A stretch of DNA of 27,587 nt, from positions 1 through 27,587 of the IMG/VR virus record IMGVR_UViG_3300027963_000277; one strand, given 5' to 3'. Source of the DNA: a virus. The notes beneath the pieces were generated by a model, which did not search any database, had not been told where the DNA came from, and was given only the letters and a program-made list of their open reading frames with translations. Below, piece after piece: positions 3,279-23,434 of this stretch; position 1 is the stretch's first letter; each line of letters starts with the position of its first letter. The translations under genes were made by a program, and so were the position numbers.

Positions 3279-3491
3279 TCATTCCTCCTTGGGAGCGAGC
3301 AATCCCGACAAATGTACGTACAAACCGTGCGTCACCGCTGCGGACGCCGGTATGGTGGCATAGCCAAATTGTTTTGCCGTCTCATACACGATCAACATGC
3401 ACACAGGATCGCGCGCCAGCACCTCATCTAAAGCGTCCCTAGCGTGCTGCGCCAGCCGAGCGTCATCAGGGTCTATGTTGGGCACCTTCAC
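3279..3491 (-). CDS. Small hypothetical protein, last gene of late operon
   Basis: This 70-aa protein starts at a GTG that overlaps the stop of the upstream metallophosphoesterase gene as GTGA. It contains an acidic helix (DPDDARLAQHARDALDEVL), a short hydrophobic strand (VCMLIVYETAKQFGY) and a second hydrophobic part near the C-terminus (GLYVHLSGLL). No motif is recognised. The overlap and codon style argue that it is a real gene. It may accompany the upstream phosphoesterase, but nothing shows a shared function. Confidence 0.5.
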   Translation of the reverse strand: MKVPNIDPDDARLAQHARDALDEVLARDPVCMLIVYETAKQFGYATIPASAAVTHGLYVHLSGLLAPKEE

Positions 3492-4498
3492 TCTGAGCGG
3501 CCCGCCTGCACCCTTACGCGCGGTTTACCAGCCATCTCCTGCCCGCGGAACCAAGCCACACCATTCACAACCTCGCATAGCTCTGGCGGCATCATCATCC
3601 CATTCTTAAACGTGAGCACAGCAAACCCTGGATTCCACAGTCTGGTGTTACCCTGCATATAGGCGAAGCAAGGCCAATTGGGATCACCTAGCATACCCGT
3701 CTGCACACCGTAACGCCGCCCCCGCATGTCAACCATGGGCTTGACCTCAAGACTATGCGTATCGCCGCTTACAAACGATACGCCAGACTTAAGCGCGTTG
3801 TTCCACCCGGCATGAATGCCGCCGTGATAGCGGTGCATGATAACCACATCATTCAAATCCAACCTGTGGCACATACGCCAATCCGAAAAGTGCCCAGCGA
3901 AGTCAAAGCCGTCCACCCCCTGAAACATGGCCGAGTGCAATGCTAGATATTTATCAAACCTATCATCGTGATTACCCCGCACCCACCACCTGGCAGCCCG
4001 CGGCGCCAGCGCCAAAATGTCATCAAGGTGTTTTTTGGCTGCCTCTATCTCATCAGCCACCTTGATGCGTTTGTGCCAGCCCAAAGGATCGTGACGGCTA
4101 GGTTCGCCCATATCCAGCAGATCACCAACGCTTAAAAGAATATTAGGCTTGACAAGCGGTATGACCTTCAACAGCGCCTCATGGGCAAGGCTGCGAGGCT
4201 GGTGCAGGCTAGTCCAGTGCGCATCGCTGAAAGCCACCACAACCGCGTTTGGATGAGTTATGCGCTCTGTTAGATCGGATTTGGGCGGATTGTCGGGATC
4301 ATACGCAATCGCGTTTTTGTGCATCTTGCGCACGTCAGGTTTTTGGAATTTTTGGACGGCAGCGTCGTAATGGTTCTGCGCCGTCGCAATCGCCATTTTC
4401 GGTATGAACGATCTGGCGGCGGCGGAAACAGAACCGTGAACAGCGACTAAATTGTAAACAGGCTCGACATCTTCCCACTTATATCCAGCCTGTGGCAT
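3488..4498 (-). CDS. Calcineurin-like metallophosphoesterase with N-terminal HTH-like segment
   Basis: The 336-aa protein contains the full ordered set of metallophosphoesterase motifs: SDAH (91-94), GDLLDMG (125-131), GNHDDR (175-180), MHRYHGG (221-227) and GDTHS (245-249). These supply the Asp/His/Asn ligands of a dinuclear metal centre that hydrolyses phosphomono- or diesters. Residues 10-45 (VYNLVAVHGSVSAAARSF) look like a helix-turn-helix, so the enzyme may be targeted to DNA; that is inference. AGGGG lies upstream of the ATG. The family is common in phages, often as DNA or nucleotide phosphatase/nuclease, but the substrate is unknown here. It is one of the last genes of the late operon, after the virion genes. 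Confidence 0.8.
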   Translation of the reverse strand: MPQAGYKWEDVEPVYNLVAVHGSVSAAARSFIPKMAIATAQNHYDAAVQKFQKPDVRKMHKNAIAYDPDNPPKSDLTERITHPNAVVVAFSDAHWTSLHQPRSLAHEALLKVIPLVKPNILLSVGDLLDMGEPSRHDPLGWHKRIKVADEIEAAKKHLDDILALAPRAARWWVRGNHDDRFDKYLALHSAMFQGVDGFDFAGHFSDWRMCHRLDLNDVVIMHRYHGGIHAGWNNALKSGVSFVSGDTHSLEVKPMVDMRGRRYGVQTGMLGDPNWPCFAYMQGNTRLWNPGFAVLTFKNGMMMPPELCEVVNGVAWFRGQEMAGKPRVRVQAGRSE

Positions 4499-4667: not shown

Positions 4668-4912
4668 TTCCACCTTCGCATTGACGCCCTCGCCCGGCTG
4701 CCAGGTTTAGACTTTCTGGCGATTGGTCTCATCCTCGCGCAAAATGAAGCCTTGCGGCCAGCTTCTTTTGCGTTCCGAGGATTGGGCGCAGGAGCCTTCA
4801 GACGGCTGCCGGTAGCCTTGTTGTATTTAGCCCTTCCCTTGGCCGTGAGACCCGCCCCACGGCTGGCTGAGAGCTTCTCCCCGCGGCCTACGCTAAGGCT
4901 GTCCCCGGCCAT
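4658..4912 (-). CDS. Conserved basic phage protein, DUF6321-like
   Basis: The 84-aa protein carries the string LSASRGAGLTAKGRAKYNKA, then TGSRLKAPAP, an SFCARM motif and a C-terminal MRRWKC. This arrangement (GAGLTAKGRAKYN...GS.LKAP...SFCARM...RKW.C) is a well-known small phage family that I recall as DUF6321; the number needs confirming. It is lysine- and arginine-rich with conserved Cys in SFCARM and at the C-terminus, which could bind metal. Its role is unknown. It starts 1 nt after the upstream stop and its end overlaps the next small basic gene, a pairing also seen in other phages. Confidence 0.7.
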   Translation of the reverse strand: MAGDSLSVGRGEKLSASRGAGLTAKGRAKYNKATGSRLKAPAPNPRNAKEAGRKASFCARMRPIARKSKPGSRARASMRRWKCR

Positions 4913-4913
4913 C

Positions 4914-5258
4914 CTAGAAGCCCTCGCCGGGGGTCACATAGATAATGCCAGTGCCGGTGGCCGTGATGGCAGACACATAGAACACCGGAGTGGCATTATT
5001 CGGCACACGCGGCGCCGTCACGATCACGGTCACGTTATTATGGAGCACGATGCCATAACCAGGCGTGCCAGCCACTGGTATCACCGCGTCAGAAGTTGAC
5101 GTTGTGCCGCAGCGGAAGAATATTTCCTGCGTTGTGCCGTTGTGAATCCGCAACTGGCCGCATGGGCTGTCAGCAACCACCGCCACCGTGTTCGCCGTGG
5201 TGCTCACGTTGATGCGAGTGGTTTTGCCCATCTCTTGGAAGGCGATGTTATTAGCCAT
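4914..5258 (-). CDS. Small beta-rich virion-type protein, paralogue of 13411-13740
   Basis: This 114-aa protein is predicted almost entirely beta, with alternating Thr/Val stretches and no charged core. It starts MANNIAFQEMGKTTRINVST, has a central LRIHNGT..EIFFRCG segment, and ends ATGTGIIYVTPGEGF. The protein at 13411-13740 shares the plan: MGxT near the start, an RLIN/RIHN strand and the ending GSGTAAVYVTPGDGM. Such domains commonly occur as phage head-decoration or fibre-associated proteins; that role is inferred from fold class and paralogy. It starts at a TAATG overlap with the upstream gene. Confidence 0.6.
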   Translation of the reverse strand: MANNIAFQEMGKTTRINVSTTANTVAVVADSPCGQLRIHNGTTQEIFFRCGTTSTSDAVIPVAGTPGYGIVLHNNVTVIVTAPRVPNNATPVFYVSAITATGTGIIYVTPGEGF

Positions 5259-19071: not shown

Positions 19072-20088
19072 TTAGATCGTAAGAGCGTTATAGCCAGTAA
19101 CCTTGGTCATGGCGCGAGGCTTGGTATTCACCAACTCCGCAATCATGAGCACGGCACCGACATAACCAATCTGCCAGTTAGGCAGGGTGGACTCAAAGCC
19201 CGTGAACACAAACGAACCCTGGTCGTGGATATACAGCGACAGGTAGTTGGTGTTCAGGAAGTACATGGTGCCTTCGGGGCAGTACGGATCGGGATAGATC
19301 GGCACACCGGCAACCATGAGCGCACGGAACGCGGCCTGCGGGCCATTGGCATCGCCATCAAAGCCGGAACCCGGCGTGATAACGTACTGCTCCTGACCAA
19401 CGTAGTCCTGCGCCAGCAGGGTCCAAGTACCAAAGCCGCACACGCCAAAGGTCGGCACTTCCGCACCGTTCTTGACCGTACCGCTGATGTATTGAAGGAC
19501 GTTCTGACGGGTCGGGTTGACCGAACCAGCGGCGTACACCTTGGAGCGCCACCAAGTATTAACCGAGGTGGAGCGGGCAATGTTGCCGTAGGTGCCGAGC
19601 GTGGTGCCGTCATCCACGGCGCCAGGCAGACCAATGAACTGCTGGGTGTTCGTGGTGTTGTTGTATAGCGCCGTCGCCATCGCATCCATCATGACATTGG
19701 TCGCGTCATTCATGCGGGCTTCAATCAGCGGGATAACCGCGTGATCCTGCTGCACAGCGCCTTCCATACCCAGGAACGGCACCGGAGCAATCATCAGCTT
19801 CAAGTTGAACTCGGCGTTATAGGCGCCTTGCTGAACCGCGGGCTGAGTGAACGAACCAGAGTAATCCGACCACTGAGCATTGATAAACTGGCTGCCCTGC
19901 ACCGGCACGGTCACAGACGAAACACCGCCCGTGGCCTGCTGGCTGTTTGCAATCAGCGCCGCCATCAGCGGGGTGCTGTTGTAAATCTGGACAACCAGTT
20001 TTGGAATAAACGCCCTACGAGTAAGGTAGGTCAGTTCTGTGTACTGCGTGCTCCCCGATGCGGGGAGAATACCACCACCAATTGGCAT
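19072..20088 (-). CDS. Major capsid protein (338 aa)
   Basis: This gene has the features of a phage major capsid protein of the HK97 fold: size 338 aa, position after a scaffold-like coiled-coil gene and before decoration genes, and the segment IYPDPYCPEGTMYFLNTNYL (P-loop/C-terminal region), which recurs in capsid proteins of many environmental phages. An N-arm (LTRRAFIPKLVVQIYNSTPL) precedes a beta-rich E-loop region with WSDYSGSFTQP, and a spine-helix-like NDATNVMMDAMATALYN follows. TTAGGAGAAAG lies upstream of the ATG. It would form the icosahedral shell. No protease gene is nearby, so maturation cleavage is not evident. Confidence 0.8.
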   Translation of the reverse strand: MPIGGGILPASGSTQYTELTYLTRRAFIPKLVVQIYNSTPLMAALIANSQQATGGVSSVTVPVQGSQFINAQWSDYSGSFTQPAVQQGAYNAEFNLKLMIAPVPFLGMEGAVQQDHAVIPLIEARMNDATNVMMDAMATALYNNTTNTQQFIGLPGAVDDGTTLGTYGNIARSTSVNTWWRSKVYAAGSVNPTRQNVLQYISGTVKNGAEVPTFGVCGFGTWTLLAQDYVGQEQYVITPGSGFDGDANGPQAAFRALMVAGVPIYPDPYCPEGTMYFLNTNYLSLYIHDQGSFVFTGFESTLPNWQIGYVGAVLMIAELVNTKPRAMTKVTGYNALTI

Positions 20089-20118: not shown

Positions 20119-20661
20119 TCAGAGACCGATGGGACGGCGCGGATTGCGCATTTCCGCAAGAGCCTTGAACGCCTCGTCACGCGCTGCACGTTGCGGATTC
20201 TTCCAATACGCTTGGAGAGTATCGCGCGCTTTGCCGTCCAGCACATTCATGTTGAAGGACGAAGCCGTAGGCGCCGCCGCTTCTTTCATCCAGCGGTGGT
20301 AATCCGCCGCCGTTTCGTGGTTGGTAATGCCCTTCTCAAGCATCACCTTCTCCACTTCCTGGATTTCATCCTCGCTGCGAATCTTGCCCTGCTTCATCAG
20401 CGACTGCCGACGACGGTCAAGTTCAGCAAGCGCGTCCTTCTCTTGCAGCTTGGCTTCCAGCATTTGAATGCGAGCCTCAGAAGCCGAGGTGGAACGCGCC
20501 ACCGACTCCTCAATCTCCAATTCAGGGATGTTCAAGCCAGGCTGAGCCTTCTTGGTCAGACGCAGGAAATCCTTGCGAGTGTCCGGGTTCTCAGCCAGCG
20601 TGCGCGCCAAACGAGCCAGTTCATCGCGCGTTTCAAAGCTCAAGTCTTCAAGAGATGCCAT
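20119..20661 (-). CDS. Scaffolding protein
   Basis: The 180-aa protein lies directly upstream of the capsid gene and is nearly all charged helix. It has LSFETRDELARLARTLAENP at the start, a long coiled coil (SEARIQMLEAKLQEKDALAE, LDRRRQSLMKQGKIRSEDEI) and a final basic helix-turn region (KALAEMRNPRRPIGL). Internal scaffolds of tailed phages have this make-up and location, with a basic C-terminal element that binds the coat protein. The ribosome site before the ATG is weak, so coupling to the preceding small gene is likely. Confidence 0.7.
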   Translation of the reverse strand: MASLEDLSFETRDELARLARTLAENPDTRKDFLRLTKKAQPGLNIPELEIEESVARSTSASEARIQMLEAKLQEKDALAELDRRRQSLMKQGKIRSEDEIQEVEKVMLEKGITNHETAADYHRWMKEAAAPTASSFNMNVLDGKARDTLQAYWKNPQRAARDEAFKALAEMRNPRRPIGL

Positions 20662-20858: not shown

Positions 20859-21416
20859 CTATCGGGGCATACCCGGAGGCGGACCACCCGCGCCCGGCAT
20901 TGGGGGAGCACCAGGCGGCATACCGCCCGGCATCGGCATTCCGCCAGGCGGCGGCATCGGAGGACCACCCGGAGGCGGCGGCGGCATACCCGGGGGCCCG
21001 CCCGCACCAGCCATACCCGGAATTGCAGGCATACCGGCCATAGCCTTCATTTCAGGCGTTGCACCACCGGCCTGCGGTAGGTTCTGCAACAACTGGAGAA
21101 TCTCGGCGTTCTGTAGCTCGCCAACCTTCTGCCGGCGCGGACCCATGGCGCCCGTGAGCGAGCGCAGCGCTGCCACTAGCTTCTGGCCTTCGCCAGTCTC
21201 GCTTCCAATTGCCGGAAGGGACTGCTCAATCAAATCCATCGCCATGCCCACGTTAATCAACGCGGCTTCGCGTGAACCCATCTTAGGTTCTGGCGTGCTC
21301 ATAGGTGACGCCATCGGCGGGGCAGACGTAGCCCCTTCACCCGGATCGGGCGCATTTAGTTCCGGTGCTTCTTGCGGGCGCTGGTTTCGCAGCAGCCTCA
21401 TAACGCTTTCGGACAC
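20859..21416 (-). CDS. Helical protein with Pro/Gly/Met-rich tail, pre-scaffold position
   Basis: The 185-aa protein has a Pro/Ala-rich disordered beginning, a helical core (REAALINVGMAMDLIEQSLP and KLVAALRSLTGAMG, about 49-118) and a tail of about 58 residues made almost only of Pro, Gly, Met and Ala (128-185). Similar proteins lie between portal and scaffold genes in environmental podoviruses; their function is unknown. I prefer the GTG at 21416, with GGAG exactly 6 nt upstream, to the ATG at 21401, which has a poor ribosome site; a longer frame to 21470 would translate through the leader RNA and is unlikely. The upstream leader carries the pseudoknot. Confidence 0.55.
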   Translation of the reverse strand: MSESVMRLLRNQRPQEAPELNAPDPGEGATSAPPMASPMSTPEPKMGSREAALINVGMAMDLIEQSLPAIGSETGEGQKLVAALRSLTGAMGPRRQKVGELQNAEILQLLQNLPQAGGATPEMKAMAGMPAIPGMAGAGGPPGMPPPPPGGPPMPPPGGMPMPGGMPPGAPPMPGAGGPPPGMPR

Positions 21417-21541: not shown

Positions 21542-21574
21542 TTACCGGCGAGCCTTACGACCCTTGCGACGCAT
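21542..21574 (-). CDS. 10-aa basic micro-ORF (candidate leader peptide)
   Basis: The sequence AAAGGAGGT (21588-21580) lies 6 nt before ATG 21574, and the frame reads MRRKGRKARR followed by TAA. Five of ten residues are Arg and two are Lys. The ribosome site is among the strongest in the window, which is hard to explain for a chance ATG. It may be a real microprotein or a leader peptide whose translation controls the structured RNA just downstream. No homologous family is known to me. The conserved stop is 1 nt before the downstream hairpin. Confidence 0.5.
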   Translation of the reverse strand: MRRKGRKARR

Positions 21575-21613
21575 GGGAGACCTCCTTTCATTGCTAGAGT
21601 TGAACAACCGGCA

Positions 21614-21655
21614 TTAGCGGCCCTTGCGGCTACCGCGCTTGACGGACTTGTACAT
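21614..21655 (-). CDS. 13-aa basic micro-ORF with 11-nt perfect Shine-Dalgarno
   Basis: The frame reads MYKSVKRGSRKGR then TAA. Upstream, AAGGAGGTGAT (21669-21659) matches the complement of the 16S rRNA 3' end over 11 nt, and the GGAGG core is 7 nt from the ATG, close to ideal. This is stronger than the site of any recognised gene here, including capsid. The Shine-Dalgarno sequence overlaps the end and stop of the preceding 53-aa gene. The peptide has six Lys/Arg in 13 residues, so nucleic-acid binding is conceivable. It is too short for homology detection. Confidence 0.5.
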   Translation of the reverse strand: MYKSVKRGSRKGR

Positions 21656-21659
21656 GGTA

Positions 21660-21821
21660 TCACCTCCTTTCCGAACGCGCATTAGCGCGTGGGGCTGCCC
21701 TGTTACCTAGGGTGCGTATGGAGGATACCTTGTATTCAATGGAAGGCGAAGGATTACCGCGCGCAACATCTTTGGCTTGCGCTCTGGGCTGGTCGGATTT
21801 GATCTTAAAATCCTGTGCCAT
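21660..21821 (-). CDS. Small basic hypothetical protein coupled to portal gene (53 aa)
   Basis: The frame reads MAQDFKIKSDQPRAQAKDVA, then RGNPSPSIEYKVSSIRTLGN and RAAPRANARSERR. It starts at a TGATG overlap with the portal stop, which is strong evidence of translation by coupling. The protein is basic and probably disordered except for the IEYKVSSIRTL strand. No family is recognised. Its last codons and stop carry the exceptional ribosome site of the following micro-ORF, so translation of the two is likely linked. Confidence 0.6.
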   Translation of the reverse strand: MAQDFKIKSDQPRAQAKDVARGNPSPSIEYKVSSIRTLGNRAAPRANARSERR

Positions 21822-23434
21822 CACTTACCCTGCTTGCCTGGCGGCTTTCCCTCGGGAGGTGGGTTAGCCTTCTGTTGAGCGGCCTGCTTCTTCAACTTGT
21901 CCTTCAACAATTGCTTCATAGGCGGGTCAAGCAAATCAATCAAGGACTCTTTGTCAATCGCCCCCGCCTTGAACAAGTTGAACGACAACTGCCGCATATC
22001 CTCCATAAAAATCGGGCTGTTGGAGTGGGCGTCAACCTTCACCATAAAGTCCTTGGTGAATTGCTCAGCGATAAACTTATTGCCATGCACATCAGGGAAG
22101 TGCGTGCGGTCATATTGCTGCATCAACTTGAGATACAGCGTCGCCATCTTTTCCAGCGCGTCTTCAATCACCAGCGCCCGCTTCTTGATGCGCGACGATC
22201 CCAGCCGCGCCAACTGAGAGGCATGCCCCTGTGACCTAACCCCAGACTCACCGCGGCCAGACAACACTGAGGAAATGCCCGACGCCTCACTGAACATGGC
22301 ATCAATCGCGTCAATCTCTCGGAACAAATCAGCCGGCATTTCAGGCGCCAGCCGCTCCACCTTGCCCTGCGCCATGTCGTTGGACAGCAGGCCGCCAGCA
22401 CGGTTTAGCGCAAAGTTCTTCTCGTCCAGAATGCCGGTAAAGCCCATCAGCGCCGTCGGCGGGTTCACCTGCTTGCTCAACAGGTCCAGAATCTCAGTCA
22501 TGCGTTTGTTGCGCATCTGCTGAAGGAAGATCAGCTTCTGCACCTCAGATTGACCCCAGTAGTAGTCATACTGCGGGTTGGGCGTGATCTGGATAAACGG
22601 CAGTTCGCCCTTCATGAAAAGCTGCTCGCCGGGGCGGTCGTAGATAATCACGTCAGGCTCGGCAATCGTGACCACCTGATAGTCGTCAATCTCATCGTTC
22701 CAAAGATACAACTCCCGCATTTCAACCGTATCCTCGGCCACCTGAGCCTTCATGCGGTTGTAGCCGTACAAATCCAGGTTGACCGTACCGTAGATGGTTG
22801 GGTTGGTCTGGCTCATCACGATGCGGTCAAGGCCCTCAGGCACATGGCTCACTTGATGCTGCGCCGCGCTAATGCGGTCCATGATCGACTTGCGCTTGGG
22901 ATGCCCGTACAGACGCCGCGCCAAGTCAGACTTGGTGACGTAGTAGGTTTGGACCATTGCCTCTTGGCGGTCGGTGTATGGCGTATCCTCGCGCAGAACG
23001 CCGACGCTGCCAGGCTCCACCATGTAGGGATGGATCGACCCATTGCGCACAACAAGCTTGATGAAGGTGGAGGCATAACAAAGCGCCCACGTCATCGCCA
23101 TGGCAAACACTTGGTCGCCGTTGGAATCCTGCCACTTGTCGTTCAGCGCCGCAGTCAGCACCGGCACCTTGGTGTGCTCGTTCTCTGGCACCGACGCGCC
23201 GAGGTTAATGCTGAAGCGCGTGGTGTCCGCGCTAAACAAGAACGCCGTCACTTGGTCAATGTGCGGGTAAATCTTGTTGTAGTGCGCCGGGCTTTCCTCC
23301 GGGCCAGCACCAAACAAATACCAAGAGCGCAGGCTGCTGTAATCGGCCTTACGCTCCTCCCGAGACACCATGCACTTCTGGATCAAATCGAGATACAGAG
23401 TTTCGCGCTCAATTGGGTCCTTGGGAATTATCAC
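21821..23434 (-). CDS. Portal protein (537 aa)
   Basis: The protein begins DPIERETLYLDLIQKCMVSR and has YSSLRSWYLFGA near residue 40, then IYPHIDQVTAFLFSADTTRF, a region seen in podovirus-type portal proteins. The middle is beta-rich with DYYWGQSEVQKLIFLQQMRN at the clip/stem side, and the C-terminal half is a long helical region (KKRALVIEDALEKMATLYLK, QLSFNLFKAGAIDKESLIDL) consistent with wing and crown. It would form the dodecameric channel for DNA packaging. The start is GTG with GAGGGA upstream. The Lys/Pro/Gln-rich C-terminal tail is disordered. Location after TerL and before scaffold supports the call. Confidence 0.75.
   Translation of the reverse strand: MIIPKDPIERETLYLDLIQKCMVSREERKADYSSLRSWYLFGAGPEESPAHYNKIYPHIDQVTAFLFSADTTRFSINLGASVPENEHTKVPVLTAALNDKWQDSNGDQVFAMAMTWALCYASTFIKLVVRNGSIHPYMVEPGSVGVLREDTPYTDRQEAMVQTYYVTKSDLARRLYGHPKRKSIMDRISAAQHQVSHVPEGLDRIVMSQTNPTIYGTVNLDLYGYNRMKAQVAEDTVEMRELYLWNDEIDDYQVVTIAEPDVIIYDRPGEQLFMKGELPFIQITPNPQYDYYWGQSEVQKLIFLQQMRNKRMTEILDLLSKQVNPPTALMGFTGILDEKNFALNRAGGLLSNDMAQGKVERLAPEMPADLFREIDAIDAMFSEASGISSVLSGRGESGVRSQGHASQLARLGSSRIKKRALVIEDALEKMATLYLKLMQQYDRTHFPDVHGNKFIAEQFTKDFMVKVDAHSNSPIFMEDMRQLSFNLFKAGAIDKESLIDLLDPPMKQLLKDKLKKQAAQQKANPPPEGKPPGKQGK

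Follow-up and report, generated by a model that had tools for sequence, protein, structure and literature searches.

Two micro-genes downstream of the portal gene

The window, that is, the whole 27,587-nt stretch of viral DNA analysed, carries two very short open reading frames in series on the minus strand, here termed mu1 and mu2. The first (21614..21655) encodes the 13-residue peptide MYKSVKRGSRKGR and has its ATG at 21655 and the end of its TAA stop at 21614, and the second (21542..21574) encodes the 10-residue peptide MRRKGRKARR, also followed by TAA, with its ATG at 21574; homologues of mu1 occur in relatives of this phage, and those of mu2 in nearly all of them. Each frame is preceded on the same strand by a Shine-Dalgarno (SD) sequence, AAGGAGGTGAT (21659..21669) for mu1 and AAAGGAGGT (21580..21588) for mu2. 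A preliminary description of this DNA had singled out both frames without naming the strand; its frames, SD sites and coordinates were correct, and the spacings that it called near ideal measured 7 nt (mu1) and 6 nt (mu2) from GGAGG to ATG. Its view that two such sites would hardly arise by chance was also borne out: the pattern AGGAGGT-N(3-8)-ATG occurred only at mu1 and mu2 in the 27.6-kb window, compared to a mean of 0.11 occurrences in dinucleotide shuffles, where two sites were reached in 1 of 100. What the 11-nt SD sequence matches is the textbook 3' end of bacterial 16S rRNA, which may differ from that of the host's own 16S.

The neighbouring genes, all on the minus strand, place the pair in a head-gene block. 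Upstream lies the portal gene (21821..23434; phrog_1216; Pfam SU10_portal), followed by a 53-aa ORF (21660..21821; MAQDFKIKSDQ...SERR) whose ATG at 21821 overlaps the portal stop as TGATG and which ends GAA AGG AGG TGA. Since this ORF starts on the portal stop and its last codons, AGG AGG TGA, double as the SD of mu1, the portal gene, the 53-aa ORF and mu1 form a tightly packed series, in agreement with the serial arrangement described earlier, and the ORF is likely, from these overlaps, to be translationally coupled to both portal and mu1. A gene of similar size is annotated at its place in the relative MW202753. Downstream of mu2 follow a Gly/Pro/Met-rich protein, listed as 203 aa and probably shorter, from a putative GTG start at 21415 (20859..21415), a charged 180-aa ORF (20119..20661) that appears scaffold-like by position and composition and had no family match in PHROG or Pfam, and the major capsid gene (19072..20088; phrog_9953, E 5e-37). 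The location between portal and capsid genes given in the preliminary description therefore holds for the interval as a whole, which is also where the micro-genes sit in MW202825 and MW202753, but they do not abut the capsid gene, as the 203-aa and scaffold-like ORFs intervene. The portal, capsid and terminase of the window match phage families, and by the presence of terminase and portal the window is classed as a tailed phage genome, not as that of an ssDNA microvirus with its J gene upstream of capsid protein F. A consensus scan of the window revealed no sigma-70 promoter after mu2; a likely one was seen by eye in relatives such as L036.

Occurrence in relatives

The portal protein served as query to collect relatives among public phages and viral contigs, the capsid protein to collect them among genome contigs, and the portals of two relatives, L123 and L313, to reach more distant ones; L123 itself entered through a scan for the micro-ORF pattern, while its own relatives were found by portal alone. 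A frame in the region after the portal stop counted as a micro-ORF if it encoded 7-30 aa, at least 45% of them Lys or Arg, and had both an ATG and an SD. The unbiased set comprised 93 distinct post-portal regions, retrieved through portal or capsid and not through the micro-ORFs themselves; of these, 91 carried one to three micro-ORFs, giving 79 distinct peptides of 9-22 aa with an ATG start and an SD, and the stop was TAA in 153 of 164 cases. The two exceptions were L048, in which the ATG of an otherwise intact mu2 has become ATA, and L312, in which an SD-led 20-aa frame, MYGKMPKPMKKPPMRDGKRS, stands at the place of mu1 and falls under the charge threshold. The enrichment was specific to this place. 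In the 82 loci recovered by the initial searches with portal and capsid, 145 SD-led ORFs of 7-30 aa lay within 600 nt after the portal, and 126 of them were basic (≥45% K+R); elsewhere, in 1.34 Mb of sequence that included the opposite strand, there were 444 such ORFs, none of them basic.

The peptides fall into two families, mu1 (MYKxxKRGRKTRR-like, 12-16 aa) and mu2 (M(A)RKARKGRKARK-like, 9-22 aa), with a second mu2-like copy in some clades. DNA-pattern scans for mu1 and mu2 together with the capsid search yielded at least 228 loci, 227 of the same phage group among the matches listed; the group is a family of uncultured freshwater phages. Even where portals are only ~30% identical to that of the window (L123 and L321-L335), MRKGRKHRRK is kept with the SD TAAGGAG, and L356-L358 keep MARKHKRAKRK and MARHMRRSRRK. 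The mu1 family was absent from the L036 clade, L095 and L199, so mu1 is not essential everywhere. In L323 and L324, the first ~600 nt after the portal stop contain an insertion, by eye only a possible HNH-type gene in opposite orientation, that parts the portal gene from mu2; mu2 itself lies intact behind the insertion.

Phages with distantly related capsids (Mx8, BUCT555 and Bradyrhizobium ppBjS10J-1) do without the micro-genes; a loose filter applied to these three, a TM7 phage, L315, L318 and L319 passed three frames, none of which was mu1- or mu2-like. The portal and adaptor of the window match Pfam SU10_portal and SU10_adaptor, a likeness to the head module of SU10-like phages (Kuravirus); in SU10 itself, however, only ~10 nt separate the portal gene from the next, a 78-aa ORF that is not K/R-dominated, which leaves no room for micro-ORFs.

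Selection and composition

The preliminary description had proposed aligning the interval across related phages, and across the relatives start, SD, frame, stop and basic residues were kept, with mostly synonymous change. Over 240 distinct regions, the SD persisted without its start or frame in one, L048. Codons with a single change in the unbiased set comprised 72 synonymous and 15 replacement differences (83% synonymous vs 30% expected; nominal P = 1e-24), and a larger set, chosen partly by pattern, gave 220 synonymous and 41 replacement changes, most of the latter A/S/T/G swaps with few at K or R; both tests count linked changes as independent, so that their P values are indicative only. 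Along minimum-spanning edges between close sequences of the unbiased set, changes at codon positions 3, 1 and 2 numbered 88, 27 and 21, and pairwise pN/pS was 0.32 for mu1 and 0.39 for mu2. Arginine codons were CGT or CGC in 87% of cases in the micro-genes vs 61% in the portal genes; together with the SD sites and the prevalence of TAA stops, this codon choice points to efficient translation. As frame, SD, start and stop are all kept under purifying selection, mu1 and mu2 qualify as protein-coding genes; judged by these substitution patterns, they are genuine microprotein genes under purifying selection and are evidently translated.

The high basicity noted earlier for the two window peptides extends to the relatives, where K/R-dominated composition is retained. 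Over 145 distinct peptides, R made up 33% and K 30% (together 63%, a protamine-like composition), followed by A (9%) and G (8%), with S and T also present. Net charge ranged from +6 to +12, K or R stood at the C-terminal end in 143 of the 145, and D/E were confined to six readings from alternative upstream starts. The longest homologue (22 aa) had no PHROG match even at E 10, and at 10-13 aa a peptide offers too little sequence to judge homology.

RNA elements around the micro-genes

Most relatives carry an H-type pseudoknot between mu1 and mu2 that ends ~20 nt before the mu2 ATG (representative, L028:7864-7898). It consists of S1 AGGG/CCCU, a 3-nt loop and S2 GGCUGCUU/AAGUGGCC with a conserved tandem wobble, and is preceded by a small hairpin, often with a GNRA loop. 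Variants included GAGG/CCUC, ACGG/CCGU, GGCUGACUU/AAGUUGGCC, GGCUGCAUU/AAUGUGGCC, GGCUGGUU/AACUGGCC and GGUUUCU/AGAAACC. The fold was parsed in 115 of 123 non-redundant spacers, which had been preselected for its core, and S1 was paired in 100% vs 71% with permuted partners and inner S2 in 96% vs 69% (0 of 2000 permutations each), figures that lean upward given that the parser seeks pairing, while the double changes are visible by eye. Pairs were counted by per-sequence parse, as a MAFFT alignment misplaced the 3' arm. By these compensatory changes the predicted pseudoknot is covarying. It was absent from the window's own clade and from the L068-L079-type clade (MAYKSVKRSRR...), both of which keep the peptides, and Rfam returned only two matches on five relatives, both below gathering scores. 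Another G/C-rich hairpin (CCGGGGG...CCCCCGG type) lies ~20-60 nt before mu2 in the distant clade of L322, L325 and L123 and is perhaps a counterpart of the pseudoknot.

For the window itself, the predicted RNA fold was no better than that of shuffles (z = -0.6 and -0.05). Within 21735-21656 on the minus strand, GGTATCCTCC in the upstream ORF can pair with the mu1 SD (GGAGG-TG-ATACC), with some compensatory change in L021 and L022; sequestration of the SD by this ORF was rejected as a general feature, because pairing across the family was no better than shuffled (mean z 0.08; -0.73 in the group with ≥80% portal identity), and the pairing may serve only as a clade-level lead. A readthrough fusion of mu1 and mu2 was likewise discarded, the two being in frame in the window (81 nt apart) and out of frame in L002 (119 nt), as was a mini-ORF, MAAxPxK, that relatives carry between mu1 and mu2: it overlaps the pseudoknot, and neither its frame nor its stop is conserved from clade to clade.

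Possible function of the peptides

At 9-22 residues, almost all of them Lys, Arg or small, the products of the micro-genes lack a hydrophobic core and have hardly any acidic positions; they would be unstructured polycations, a class expected to bind nucleic acid, and mu1 and mu2 probably do so. Because they are encoded in the head operon, the phage genome is the favoured target, and we put at about an even chance the reading that they are nucleic-acid-binding peptides of the head-assembly operon that neutralise the charge of packaged DNA, by analogy with protein J or adenovirus mu. Such peptides would most likely be produced abundantly in the late phase of infection and would act on phage DNA during or after packaging by neutralising phosphate charge, and would thus perhaps help to pack it; a location in the virion would be consistent with the gene position. 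By a rough count, genomes of ~34-36 kb hold ~70,000 phosphates; with charges of +6 and +7, the two window peptides at 1000 copies apiece would offset about one-fifth of these. Translation level, nucleic-acid binding, preference for DNA over RNA, virion presence and copy number are all inferred here from sequence. To our knowledge, tailed phages generally package their DNA with polyamines and metal ions, and we know of no protamine among them; that SU10, Mx8, BUCT555 and ppBjS10J-1 manage without such genes also speaks against a DNA-condensing role.

Several known systems offer partial parallels. Protamines and protamine-like sperm proteins are dominated by Lys and Arg and contain hardly any acidic or hydrophobic residues, a dominance that the mu peptides share, but they are eukaryotic and larger, and no common ancestry is suggested. 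Protein J of the phiX174-type microviruses is, like mu1 and mu2, a very short and very basic phage protein encoded in the neighbourhood of head genes, in its case beside the capsid gene; it differs in size (~24-40 aa vs 9-22 aa) and in belonging to ssDNA phages, whereas mu1 and mu2 occur in pairs in dsDNA tailed phages, and no homology is claimed. Each RF molecule is coated by about 120 copies of protein J, which apparently directs the genome within the capsid (PMC13386984). Mature adenovirus mu (protein X) is a basic peptide of 19 aa, present at ~100-300 copies per virion, that helps to condense a dsDNA genome and is cleaved by a protease from a 79-aa precursor (PMC7998265). Unlike this product of an unrelated virus, the phage peptides are directly encoded as free-standing genes. 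The fuller proposal, of a genome-condensing system in dsDNA tailed phages made up of free-standing virion protamines of 9-22 residues in the paired families mu1 and mu2, with the pseudoknot maybe metering synthesis in most lineages, is one that we hold tentatively and with some doubt; if true, it would be a kind of system not known to have been described for tailed phages.

The basic composition of the peptides would suit RNA or ribosome binding equally well, and RNA binding is the chief rival because a pseudoknot precedes mu2 in most relatives. Short peptides rich in arginine are well-known binders of RNA, and T4 gp32 forms an autoregulatory loop with its own pseudoknot; the mu peptides could similarly bind structured phage mRNA, such as the covarying element ~20 nt before mu2 in most relatives outside the window clade, and control translation, stability or termination of late genes in an autoregulatory loop. 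Since the window clade and the L068-L079-type clade retain the peptides without the pseudoknot, and the mu1 SD shows no family-wide pairing with the sequence before it (mean z ~0), we consider this unlikely. Regulation of another kind was raised in the preliminary description, which offered DNA-binding virion microproteins or regulatory leader peptides; the results uphold selected microproteins and weaken the leader reading. Leader peptides would attenuate the downstream 203-aa, scaffold or capsid genes through ribosome position or arginine/lysine supply, in line with short, strong-SD ORFs ahead of a presumably highly expressed operon and with hairpins seen by eye after mu2 in some relatives. 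Attenuation is nevertheless disfavoured, and we rate it as very improbable, because the peptide sequence is kept through synonymous change, the Arg codons are preferred and not rare, and the next gene lies at widely differing distances (~127 nt in the window vs ~15 nt in L356); moreover, mu1 and mu2 each keep an SD of their own, and no significant fold covers the window region.

Two further readings keep the peptides as proteins with other partners. Their fixed position in the portal-scaffold-capsid block, together with tolerated length variation and repeat-like expansion from 9 to 22 aa, would fit head-assembly cofactors, tiny proteins that attach to acidic surfaces on portal, scaffold or capsid and serve there as glue or as scaffold triggers; the near-pure K/R/small composition argues against this, as does the fact that mu2 has no conserved anchor residue, hydrophobic or aromatic (Tyr is frequent in mu1 alone), and we judge it rather improbable. 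Strong SD sites and preferred codons suggest a high dose, at which the peptides might act against the host, binding its DNA, RNA or ribosomes and shutting down its functions; we allow this only a slim chance, as the genes are located in the structural block and near-universal linkage to the portal gene would be unusual for host takeover. Short ORFs are common, and SD-like sites could by chance fall on meaningless frames, an explanation to which we give practically no weight and which is refuted by the relatives, given conservation in 91 of 93 unbiased regions and no basic SD-led ORF among the 444 elsewhere. Nucleic-acid-binding peptides of the head operon remain our preferred reading, and they raise the question of whether some tailed phages pack DNA with peptide counter-ions, as adenoviruses and microviruses do.

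Annotation and other features of the phage group

If translated as their evolution implies, genes of 10-13 codons have been kept across portals down to ~30% identity, and genes for 9-22 residues would rank among the smallest conserved phage genes. They are shorter than ordinary gene callers accept and are missed by them, and the deposited annotation of two complete relatives, MW202825 and MW202753, omits them. Trypsin would cut the peptides to tiny fragments, making them nearly invisible to standard proteomics. In a search of the open-access literature, with incomplete coverage, no account of such peptides from tailed phages turned up, and the few protamine-like matches were irrelevant. Strong SD sites combined with synonymous conservation can reveal ten-codon genes in viral metagenomes.

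Hypothetical CDSs are annotated antisense over the micro-ORF region in MW202825 (L002:8246-8506, minus) and MW202753 (L003:4740-4877 and 4874-5038, both minus) and are probably spurious calls. Host assignment from MAG bins containing relatives was abandoned, because the bins (a beta proteobacterium, Balneolaceae and Saccharibacteria) were mutually inconsistent. Elsewhere in the window lie a phosphoadenosine phosphosulfate reductase-like gene (1719-2489, plus; phrog_424), possibly an auxiliary gene of sulfur metabolism, and a metallo-phosphoesterase-like gene (3488-4498, minus; phrog_221).
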